A DNA stretch of 64,000 nt, taken from the NCBI RefSeq assembly GCF_002735925.1, contig NZ_PEDL01000003.1, positions 62,001-126,000 of the forward strand, in the 5' to 3' direction. The notes under the pieces are model-generated. The model ran no database searches. It was not told the DNA's origin and saw only the letters and a program-made list of their open reading frames with translations. The stretch is from Sporanaerobium hydrogeniformans. Its GTDB lineage: Bacteria > Bacillota > Clostridia > Lachnospirales > Cellulosilyticaceae. The translations under genes and the position numbers were made by a program. This document shows positions 31,728-36,882 of this stretch, one piece after another; positions within the stretch are counted from its first letter, which is position 1; each line of letters opens with the position of its first letter.

Positions 31728-31770
31728 AAAGACTTCTAGGCTATATTTTTATAGCTTAGAAGTCTTTTTT
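31728..31770 (+). terminator. Terminator of the sugar importer operon
   Basis: AAAGACTTCTAGGCTATA pairs with TATAGCTTAGAAGTCTTT with one mismatch, followed by a T run. Confidence 0.92.
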
Positions 31771-32137: not shown

Positions 32138-33358
32138 TTGTTTGTAGGAATATGGAATTATTTACGTGGGTATGTTATAGTAGAAGTAAGAGGCCTTGCA
32201 CTTGAGCGTTTTATTAATTTAGCTGTTCACGGTGGCATTTATTTATGGGATGTTAAAAAACAAAGTGACCGACTCTGTTTTAAGATAAGCATTGGTGATT
32301 TTAAAAAGCTAAAACCTTATGCAAAAAAATCACGTTGTAAGTTACACATTGCCCGAAAGATAGGTATACCTTTTAAGCTGCATCGTTATAAGAAAAGAAA
32401 GGTATTTACACTAGGTATTTTTGTATTTATTGCTATTTTGTGGGCCTTATCTTCATTTATATGGCTTGTGGATGTAGAAGGAAATGAACAGGTTCAAGCT
32501 TTAGATATTGTCCTTACTTTAGAGGAAGCAGGATATGGCGTGGGACAATTTAAGCCTAGCCTTAATTTAAGACAAGCCGAGGCACTTCTTGTAAATAAGT
32601 ATCCTGAGATTATATGGACAGGAATTAAATTTCAAGGAACACGTTTAGTCGTACAAGTAAGTGAGATGGTAAAAAAGCCAGAAATGCATACAGATCATAC
32701 ACCGTGTCATTTAGTAGCTAAACGTGATGCATTAGTAACCTATATTGCTACTTATAAGGGAAAACCTTATGTTAAAAAAGGTGATATTGTTAAGAAGGGA
32801 GAGGTTCTTGTATCAGGGCAAATGCCTTTAGGACCAGATAATCCTAATCTTTATGTGACACAGGCAAAAGCACAAATTAAAGGTAAGACATTTTATCGTA
32901 GCGAAGGTGCTTATCAATTAGAACAAGTTGAAAAAAACTATACTTCTCGTTCTAATAAAAAGTGGAGCTTTAAGTTTTTTAATCAAAGATTTGTTCTGAA
33001 GAACCAGAAGAATACCTTCAAAAATTGGGATTCAATGATTACCTGTCATCAGTTAAGTATTACAAAGCTATTCCCTTTACCCTTTGCTCTAGAAGTGGAA
33101 GAAAGAGTAGAGTATGAACCTATAAAAAAGAAGATTACAGAAGAAGAAGCGAAGGATTATTTAACAGTTAGTTTATGGGAGGCAATAAGTAAGCAACTCT
33201 CTCCTAATGCAGAGATTTTAAAAAGAGAAATCATTTTTACGAAAAATGGCAATGCTATACATGCAAGCTTTCAAGTTGTAGCTGAAGAAGATATTGGATA
33301 TGCTATAGAATTACAAGCTGTAGAATTGCAAAATGAAGGAGACAAACAAAGTGAATAA
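32138..33358 (+). CDS. yqfD: Stage IV sporulation protein YqfD
   Basis: 406 residues. An N-terminal globular part (1-90) precedes a single membrane helix (about 92-112). The extracytoplasmic part then has VDVEGNEQV, NKYPEIIWTGIKFQGTRLVV and the RDALVTYI domain typical of YqfD. It is needed for spore maturation in relatives. Start is TTG 32138 with AAAGGAGG 7 nt upstream. Its last 8 nt overlap the next gene. Confidence 0.9.
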   Translation: MFVGIWNYLRGYVIVEVRGLALERFINLAVHGGIYLWDVKKQSDRLCFKISIGDFKKLKPYAKKSRCKLHIARKIGIPFKLHRYKKRKVFTLGIFVFIAILWALSSFIWLVDVEGNEQVQALDIVLTLEEAGYGVGQFKPSLNLRQAEALLVNKYPEIIWTGIKFQGTRLVVQVSEMVKKPEMHTDHTPCHLVAKRDALVTYIATYKGKPYVKKGDIVKKGEVLVSGQMPLGPDNPNLYVTQAKAQIKGKTFYRSEGAYQLEQVEKNYTSRSNKKWSFKFFNQRFVLKNQKNTFKNWDSMITCHQLSITKLFPLPFALEVEERVEYEPIKKKITEEEAKDYLTVSLWEAISKQLSPNAEILKREIIFTKNGNAIHASFQVVAEEDIGYAIELQAVELQNEGDKQSE

Positions 33359-34307
33359 AGTAGAAGAAAAACTTGAAATCCCTTCTTATTATATAGCAGG
33401 GGTATTTGGGCAGTTTGATGAACATATAAAGTTGATTGAAAAAGAATTAGAGGTTAGTGTGATTTTAAGAGATGATAAAATCAAACTGGCAGGCAATCTA
33501 GAAGCTGTTAAAAAAGCAAAGCAACTGTTTAAAAAACTAGTGGATTTTTGTGAACAGGGAGAGTCGATAGACTTGCAGATGGTCAAATACACAATGGATG
33601 CGATTAAAAAAAGTCACGAACAAGATTTACAAAAAATAAATAATGAAGTAGTGGCACTTACTTATTTAGGCAAACCCATTAAATGCAAGACAGCAGGTCA
33701 AAACCATTATGTGGAGCAAATTAAAAAGAAGACAGTTGTTTTTGGAGTAGGTCCTGCTGGAACTGGAAAAACTTATTTGGCTATGGCTATGGCAGTAAGC
33801 GCTTTTAGAAAAAATGAGGTAAGTAAGATTATCTTAACAAGACCTGCTATTGAAGCGGGTGAAAAGTTGGGTTTTTTACCAGGTGATTTACAGAGTAAGG
33901 TAGATCCTTATTTACGTCCACTTTATGATGCTTTGTTTGAAATCATGGGACCTGATAATTTTGAAAAAAATATGGAAAAAGGACTTATTGAAGTAGCACC
34001 ACTGGCTTATATGCGAGGGCGTACACTGAATAATGCTTTTATCGTACTTGATGAAGCACAAAATACAACACCTGAGCAAATGAAGATGTTTTTGACACGT
34101 ATTGGTTTTAATTCTAAAGTTGTGATTACAGGGGATCTGACTCAGATTGATTTACCGAATGAGAAAAAGAGTGGCTTGCAACAGGCGGAGCGGATACTCG
34201 CTCCAGTAGAAGAGATAGGTTTTTGTTATCTAGGGAAGCAAGATGTTGTACGTCATCCCATTGTGCAAAAAATTGTAGAGGCGTATGAAACATTCGAGAA
34301 AAAATAG
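33351..34307 (+). CDS. phoH: PhoH-family ATPase (YbeZ/PhoH type)
   Basis: 318 residues counted from GTG 33351, which has AAGGAG 9 nt upstream; an in-frame ATG at 33333 has no ribosome site. An N-terminal KH-like segment (about 15-65) precedes a P-loop ATPase with Walker A GPAGTGKT and Walker B AFIVLDEAQN. The family is linked to RNA metabolism and functions with YbeY, encoded two genes downstream. It is translationally coupled to yqfD by overlap. Confidence 0.93.
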   Translation: MNKVEEKLEIPSYYIAGVFGQFDEHIKLIEKELEVSVILRDDKIKLAGNLEAVKKAKQLFKKLVDFCEQGESIDLQMVKYTMDAIKKSHEQDLQKINNEVVALTYLGKPIKCKTAGQNHYVEQIKKKTVVFGVGPAGTGKTYLAMAMAVSAFRKNEVSKIILTRPAIEAGEKLGFLPGDLQSKVDPYLRPLYDALFEIMGPDNFEKNMEKGLIEVAPLAYMRGRTLNNAFIVLDEAQNTTPEQMKMFLTRIGFNSKVVITGDLTQIDLPNEKKSGLQQAERILAPVEEIGFCYLGKQDVVRHPIVQKIVEAYETFEKK

Positions 34308-34352
34308 GATTAGTCAAGTAAGAAAGTGTTAAATGTGTGAGGGGGACAAATG

Positions 34353-36381
34353 ATGAAAAAAAAAAGGTTATTGGTGGCTTTTATTTTTGACGATTGCATT
34401 GTGCACCACATTTTTTTCAGTTATTACAGGTAACTTTTTTGCAAAACGTGTATCCATACAGGTTGGACAGATTGCAAGTGAATCCTATTATGCCCCTTTC
34501 TTAGTAGAAAACGAAATAGCAACAGAAAGAAAACGTGCACTGCAAGAAAAAAGTGTAGAGCCTGTCTATAAGTCGGATATCAAAGTACAGGAAAAAGCCA
34601 TCTCAGATATGGAAACCTTATTTAACTTTACACAAACAATCCAGACAACTGATATAGCAGAGCGTCTTAATAAAACACCATTAGAAGCCCTAAAGGCAAG
34701 GGCACCTGTTGCACTGTATAACGAAGAATTCGAGAATCTTTTAGCCACCTCACAAATGGAACTAGCTGCTATAAAGGAAACGTGCATTGCCCTTGCAGCA
34801 GAGCTTTTTCAAGCGGGGATACAGGAAAATGACAATAAGGAAGCAGAAATCAGAAGTCTTTTAAGCCAAAGTACATTAAGTATGGCACATCAACGTCTTG
34901 CTAAAAGTATTATCTTAAGTGTGATTAAGCCCAATGTGATATTAGATGAAATAGCTACAGAAGAAGCTAAAAAGTTAGAACGTGAAAAGGTAGAAGCCAT
35001 TTGTATTTTACCTGGAGAAATTATTGTAGAAAAGGGAAAGCTTGTAACCGAAGAGATTTATACATTACTTGAAAAAGTAGGTTATCTGGACACTAATAAA
35101 AATGACCGTTATAAACAATATGCAGGAGTTCTCCTCCTTATAGCATTTGTTGTTTACTTTTGGACAATCTATACGAATAAGTCTGGTTTAGATTCTAAAT
35201 TATTACCTGTGAAAGAAATAAATCTACTACTTATTCTCTATAGTGTATCCATTATGATGGTAAGAGTTTTAGTAAAGGCCCCCTTTGTATATATCCCCCT
35301 TAGTATTGCTCCTATGCTTGTAGCAGTACTTATGGGCATACCAGTAGCTATTGTTTTAAATATTATTTTGACATTATTTAGTGCTTTGGTTTTAAAGAGT
35401 GATAGTATCTCGATTATCTATTTTGTTTTAACAGGTATTATAGATATTCTTATTATTAGTCATATGCAAGAACGCAAAAAGACAATGGTAAGTGCTTTAT
35501 TTGTAGGAGGTATTCAGTTTGGAGCTTATATGGCACTAAAGCTTTTTATCGGAACGGATATGACTATGAGTATAGGGGTAGAAGCAAGTATAGCCTTTGT
35601 AATAGGTGTTATTTCAGTAGTACTTGTAGTAGGAAGTTTACCTGTTTTAGAATCTGCTTTTGGCTATATTACGCCCATGCAACTATTAGAGCTTACAAAT
35701 CCCAATCAGCCTATTTTAAAACGTTTGCTTTTAGAAGCTACAGGAACTTATTATCACAGTTTGCTTGTAGCTAATTTAGCAGAAGCAGCTGCGAGTGTAA
35801 TTGGGGCGAATCCACTTTTGGCCCGCGTAGGTGGTTATTATCATGATATAGGAAAATTAACTTGTAGTAATTATTTTAAAGAAAATCAGGTACTTGGCAA
35901 TCCGCATGATCAAATGGATCCTTTTAAAAGCTATGAAGTTATTTCTTCTCATGTGACAAGTGGGGTAAAATTAGCAAATGAGTATCGTTTGCCGAGCTAT
36001 ATTAAAGATATGATTACACAGCATCATGGAACAGGCCTTATGCAGTTTTTTTATGTAAAAGCCAAAAAAGAAAAAGGGGATTTAATAAAAGAAGAGCAAT
36101 TTAGCTACAAAGGCCCTAAACCTAAAACGAAAGAAGCAGCTCTTGTGATGTTAGCAGATGTCGTAGAGGCAACTGTAAGAGCCATGCAAGAAAAATTAGG
36201 TGCAGATTTAACAATTGAACAATTAGTACGTAAAATGGTAAAACAGAAGCTTGATGAAGGACAACTTGATGAATGTGAACTGTATATTTCTGATATTGAG
36301 AAGATTATACAGTCCTTTACAAAGATGCTAAAGGGTATGTATCATGAAAGAGTACAATATCCAGAAAGGGATGAAAAATAA
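34353..36381 (+). CDS. pgpH: PgpH/YqfF 7TM-HD cyclic-di-AMP phosphodiesterase, apparent frameshift near start
   Basis: About 675 residues if the frame is repaired. The only start with a ribosome site (GAGGGGGAC) is ATG 34353 (or 34350). It enters an uninterrupted run of ten A (34356-34365) and then stops at a TGA after 12 codons. With nine A the frame would read MKKKGYWWLLF and join the long downstream frame, open from 34357. Domains: N-terminal TM, extracellular 7TMR-HDED region (to about 240), a block of seven helices (about 250-430), and a C-terminal HD domain with YYHDIGK and QHHG. It degrades cyclic di-AMP. Confidence 0.88.
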
Positions 36382-36882
36382 GTGCAAATTTATATAGAAG
36401 ATGAAAATGATTTTTTTGAAAGTAATCAGGAGATACTATCTCTTATCTATCAAGTAATAGAAGAGTGTCTTATAAGGGAAAAGGTACCTTATGAGGTAGA
36501 ATTAAGTTTAACAGTCGTGAATAAAGAAGAGATACAAAAAATGAACAAAGCATATCGCCAAATAGATAAGGCAACAGATGTCCTATCATTTCCTCAGTTG
36601 GAAGCCACTGGTCAAGGTAAAATCGATTGGAGCAATCTCGATGAGATGGAAGTCATGAACCTAGATACACAGCAATTGATGCTAGGTGATATTGTTCTAT
36701 GTGTGGATAAGGCAAAAGAGCAAGCAGAAGACTATGGACATTCTCTTAAAAGAGAAATATGTTTCTTAGTAGCACATAGTATGTTTCATCTTCTCGGATA
36801 CGACCATATGAATGAAGAGGATGAAGAAGAGATGATGCAAAAGCAAGAAGCAGTTTTAGAGACCCTTGATATAAGTCGATAA
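36382..36882 (+). CDS. ybeY: Endoribonuclease YbeY (16S rRNA maturation)
   Basis: 166 residues. The zinc-binding histidine motif is HSMFHLLGYDH near residues 133-143, and the core ATDVLSFPQ appears at about 63. YbeY trims the 3' end of 16S rRNA and helps ribosome quality control. Start GTG 36382 directly follows the pgpH stop, with AAAGGGATG upstream. Clusters with phoH and era as in most Firmicutes. Confidence 0.96.
   Translation: MQIYIEDENDFFESNQEILSLIYQVIEECLIREKVPYEVELSLTVVNKEEIQKMNKAYRQIDKATDVLSFPQLEATGQGKIDWSNLDEMEVMNLDTQQLMLGDIVLCVDKAKEQAEDYGHSLKREICFLVAHSMFHLLGYDHMNEEDEEEMMQKQEAVLETLDISR

Follow-up and report, generated by a model that had tools for sequence, protein, structure and literature searches.

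A surplus adenine at the start of pgpH and one-base slips at long A/T runs in the draft genome of Sporanaerobium hydrogeniformans

In the deposited sequence of Sporanaerobium hydrogeniformans, the start codons of pgpH, a gene predicted to encode a c-di-AMP phosphodiesterase, run into ten consecutive A and from there into a frame that is not the one of PgpH. A preliminary description of this locus had left two explanations side by side, namely an error of one A in the sequence or slippage or phase variation at the run, by which the level of a second messenger would be tuned. This raises the question of where the additional A comes from and whether it has any bearing on c-di-AMP.

The start region of pgpH

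All positions refer to the window, i.e., the whole analyzed stretch of 64,000 nucleotides (contig NZ_PEDL01000003.1, positions 62,001 to 126,000). Its features around pgpH are the following:

33333..34307, + strand, phoH-like gene directly upstream of pgpH
34341..34346, + strand, Shine-Dalgarno-like purine stretch AGGGGG, part of GAGGGGGACAA, 4-7 nt before the tandem ATGs
34350..34355, + strand, tandem ATG ATG; ATG 34353 is the start common to relatives and lies 7 nt from the Shine-Dalgarno-like stretch
34356..34365, + strand, A10 run directly after the ATGs, with one A surplus for the PgpH frame
34350..34433, + strand, deposited reading frame of 27 codons, followed by TAA 34431-34433
34366..36381, + strand, rest of the pgpH frame, open throughout; 7TM-HD extracellular, 7TM and HD/HDIG domains
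36382..36882, + strand, ybeY, directly downstream of pgpH

As the preliminary description had stated, the ten A behind ATG 34350/34353, with AGGGGG upstream, separate the start codons of pgpH from its frame, and its reading that nine A lead into the PgpH frame as MKKKGYWWLLF holds as well. The stop after 12 codons that it had assigned to the ten-A sequence has to be corrected to 26-27 codons: starting from ATG 34353, the frame comprises 26 codons before TAA 34431 (translation MMKKKRLLVAFIFDDCIVHHIFFSYYR), while translation of run-length variants showed that the 12-codon product (MKKKKVIGGFYF, then a stop) belongs to eleven A or to a -1 ribosomal shift. The PgpH frame is rejoined with either nine or twelve A, nine of them placing MKKKGYWWLLF ahead of the 664-codon frame, and from A10 only the removal of one A or the addition of two A restores it. 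The A10 run is the only A/T run of at least ten in the window, compared to 5.5 expected from shuffled sequences, and by itself is no excess.

Within the PgpH frame, the first codon that could serve as a start is TTG 34387, preceded at a distance of 9 nt by a weak GGTGG. The earlier statement that the downstream frame offers no other start with a ribosome site consequently does not hold entirely. The one start common to relatives is ATG 34353.

Gene identity and the start in relatives

In a single chain, the protein combines the 7TMR-HDED, 7TM, and HD domains (132.9, 90.5, and 63.6 bits, with Pfam cut-offs of 27.6, 29.4, and 22), which is the complete domain order of PgpH (PF07697-PF07698-PF01966), and shares 45-64% identity with family relatives. 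Also the gene order yqfC-yqfD-phoH-pgpH-ybeY is the usual one. Judged from its sequence, the gene is most likely an ordinary pgpH coding for a predicted c-di-AMP phosphodiesterase, differing from other pgpH genes in that its start, as deposited, misses the frame by one A. Since the 664 downstream codons are open and the domains exceed the Pfam cut-offs, pgpH does not show any sign of decay. A second predicted c-di-AMP phosphodiesterase, GdpP, is present with an open frame in the same genome, so that a loss of PgpH would be buffered. Ahead of yqfC, at 31728-31767, lies a strong terminator-like hairpin, which fits the start of an operon there.

In 10 family relatives the start at the position of ATG 34353 is intact and in frame (MKKRRYGWA, MKNKEYGWA, and others), and the context GGGGGACAAA(AG)ATG precedes pgpH in four relatives as well. 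The N-terminus obtained with nine A, MKKKGYWWLLFLTIALCTTFFSVITGNFF, aligns to the relatives without internal gaps, and it is the only run-length reading that does so. By this comparison, the surplus A present in the text of the assembly is an out-of-frame base relative to the conserved protein. No conserved pgpH frameshift was found among the relatives, every one with a readable start being in frame, and the relatives searched did not include a second isolate or another genome of the same genus (the contig search yielded only relatives with 62-64% identity). A programmed frameshift shared by the family was rejected, as both pgpH and mraZ are in frame in relatives.

One-base slips at long A/T runs across the draft genome

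The genome of the organism, a draft of 64 contigs and 3.74 Mb, contains 460 runs of A8, 56 of A9, and 11 of A10, with no A/T run longer than ten. All six A10/T10 runs located in genes break their gene by one surplus base; besides pgpH, these are genes for a sporulation-type, sigK-like sigma factor, MraZ, a chemotaxis receptor, a helix-turn-helix protein, and a small protein. Among approximately 27 genic A9/T9 runs about 8 are broken by one base, affecting a phosphopantetheinyl transferase, a prepilin peptidase, a CPBP-like membrane protein, a CotS-like kinase, an FtsK-like N-terminus, a coiled-coil protein, one unnamed protein, and FliJ. For genic A8/T8 runs the fraction drops to 3 out of approximately 180 in 1.66 Mb of the genome (an ABC-F ATPase, a substrate-binding protein, and an ABC transporter), to which an RNase J gene outside these 1.66 Mb has to be added. 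Altogether, at least 18 genes of the draft are broken, 17 by a run that is one base too long and one by a run that is too short; as frames were judged by eye, these counts may move by one or two, and gene names not backed by a family search are readings of the translations. The bias towards runs that are too long was at first considered a hint at the mechanism but was dropped, because runs of n-1 bases far outnumber runs of n bases, so that the abundances of run lengths account for the 17 of 18 under any symmetric error.

For several of these genes the two halves can be followed across the run. MraZ is split at its T10 run into positions 1-82 and 58-142, RNase J at A8 into 2-184 and 180-546 (an intact second RNase J copy is present), and the Pfam profile Peptidase_A24 of the prepilin peptidase into 1-56 and 55-104, while the sigK-like sigma factor has sigma-70 region 2 in the frame ahead of the run and region 4 in the frame that follows it. 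Breaks in the middle of a gene are common (mraZ at codon 69 of 142, sigK, RNase J at codon ~184, and the prepilin peptidase at codon ~163), and the affected runs are scattered along genes for housekeeping, sporulation, flagella, and other functions. pgpH is thus nothing special among them. None of the named broken genes is strictly essential (RNase J has its second copy).

Regarding single loci, mraZ (contig C54, 88457-88877) is split by a surplus base in T10 and is intact in those relatives that have mraZ on one contig. On contig C33, the genes for RNase J (181688-183320, A8) and for a sporulation-type sigma factor (183561-183570, A10) lie within about 2 kb, and in each a single surplus A splits the gene. 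Long runs with one A or T too many were also seen in the genes for the prepilin peptidase (C11:499935), the phosphopantetheinyl transferase (C1:11891), the chemotaxis receptor (C5:89206), ABC-F (C22:213032), and the FtsK-like protein (C63:10260). The only affected gene found with a run one base short is fliJ (C22:255510).

The draft is not affected by indels in general. When 864 kb were scanned by codon usage, A/T runs of 5-7 and runs of G/C showed essentially no true frame break; candidates at runs of at least 6 were inspected (nearly all turned out to be operon overlaps), and those at shorter runs only counted. Similarly, no broken genic A10/A11 run was found in three relatives, and in one of them none of approximately 21 genic A9 runs was broken. 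For genic A9-A11 runs, this amounts to 14 of 33 broken in the own genome versus 0 of approximately 24 in the relatives (Fisher p = 1.2e-4). As mutS (mutS1) and mutL are both intact in the own genome, a mutator explanation was rejected.

Possible origins of the surplus base

Most likely, one of the ten A is either wrong or newly slipped, this being the best account of the surplus base, while a c-di-AMP switch or a rescue by slippage is disfavored. Between the two explanations left by the preliminary description, the one of a surplus-A error has gained strength, since the same kind of break recurs in the draft and occurs in none of the three relatives, whereas a slippage that tunes c-di-AMP has lost ground, given the wrong directions of the slips and the fact that pgpH is not singled out. 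The finding is probably without significance for the control of c-di-AMP.

We lean towards a homopolymer-length error in the consensus as the origin of the surplus A. The working pgpH would then carry nine A after ATG 34353 where the deposited draft has ten, and the surplus A would be one of the genome-wide one-base slips confined to A/T runs of at least 8, which in turn would stem from homopolymer-length errors in the draft consensus, i.e., from the data and not from the DNA. An error is favored because many genes of a single draft are hit, including 6 out of 6 at the longest runs, while mutS and mutL are intact and the body of pgpH is undamaged. Like homopolymer errors of draft assemblies, the breaks are single-base, depend on length, and are limited to long runs in unrelated genes of one assembly; unlike what would be typical for such errors, A7 and G/C runs are clean here, so that the match to their profile is only a partial one. 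Moreover, error and mutation alike predict both a rise with run length and more surplus than missing bases, and the lack of strictly essential genes among the named broken ones would also match real, tolerated mutations, their number being too small to tell error from mutation. Illumina sequencing is seldom wrong at A8-A10, with spurious indels arising mainly above 14 bases (PMC8808543), and for this reason an error would fit best to a flow-based or another indel-prone platform. Until the run lengths have been checked, it would be premature to take the apparent loss of sigK, mraZ, RNase J, the prepilin peptidase, or pgpH in S. hydrogeniformans as biology.

Rather unlikely, but the first alternative to consider, is that the A10 run is real in the sequenced clone and originated from a +1 replication slip that turns pgpH off or down, either as a chance loss or as a phase-OFF state as known for B. 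subtilis swrA, with c-di-AMP still being degraded by GdpP. Where poly(A) tracts lie close to a gene start, they are indeed prone to slippage and phase-variable, as seen for swrA and L. monocytogenes inlA (PMC2831843), and with these the pgpH run shares its position just past the start codon. The restriction of the breaks to long A/T runs and their steep dependence on length are as expected from replication slippage, and both the open GdpP frame and the absence of strictly essential genes among the named broken ones are compatible with it. However, at least 18 genes would have had to slip in one clone (6 of 6 at A10) in spite of intact mutS and mutL, with none in the relatives. In addition, phase-variable tracts would be expected in only a few contingency genes and at their 5' ends, whereas here the runs are spread along diverse genes, many of them are broken in the middle and thus away from where a switch would sit, and the tract is absent from relatives. 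The abstracts of papers on pgpH frameshifts, which concern other genera, do not describe a poly(A) switch.

It appears improbable that the A10 run is a real and standing feature, with part of PgpH being made by RNA polymerase slippage or a ribosomal +1 shift. At A-rich slippery sites the ribosomal shift is mostly -1. This rescue would be in accordance with the otherwise intact pgpH and its conserved start and domains, and it has a precedent in the poly(A) frameshifts of the endosymbionts Buchnera and Blochmannia (PMC3017870), where several otherwise intact genes per genome are each hit by a single indel within a long A/T run. Should the runs turn out to be real, the present genome would be a rare counterpart of these in a free-living bacterium. 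Yet, frame restoration in pgpH needs -1 or +2 A, while in E. coli and Buchnera the slippage of transcription at A/T runs is overwhelmingly +1 (151 insertions versus 15-16 deletions in Buchnera; PMC5574713), and both the common +1 transcript and the -1 ribosomal shift would end here after 12 codons. Rescue should also make runs that are one base short common, and of the 18 runs 17 carry one base too many. Hence, the main slip direction does not restore the frame, nor is the frameshift conserved, the pgpH genes of relatives being without such runs; further differences to the endosymbionts are the 3.7-Mb genome and its intact mismatch repair genes. There is very little chance that efficient deletion of one base at A8-A10 by RNA polymerase or the ribosome, in a direction contrary to the known +1 bias, lets a lineage of ordinary-sized Clostridia tolerate many tracts across its genome that are one base too long, including the one of pgpH.

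A start of translation at TTG 34387, with the A run as leader, would draw on the weak GGTGG and the 664 open codons but is highly improbable, as it gives up the conserved Shine-Dalgarno-ATG arrangement together with the protein's first 11 residues, among them the positively charged N-terminus and some of the first membrane helix, that are kept by all aligned relatives. It is nevertheless from this TTG that the ORF caller lists pgpH as an unbroken ORF of 664 amino acids, by which standard annotation would hide the frameshift.
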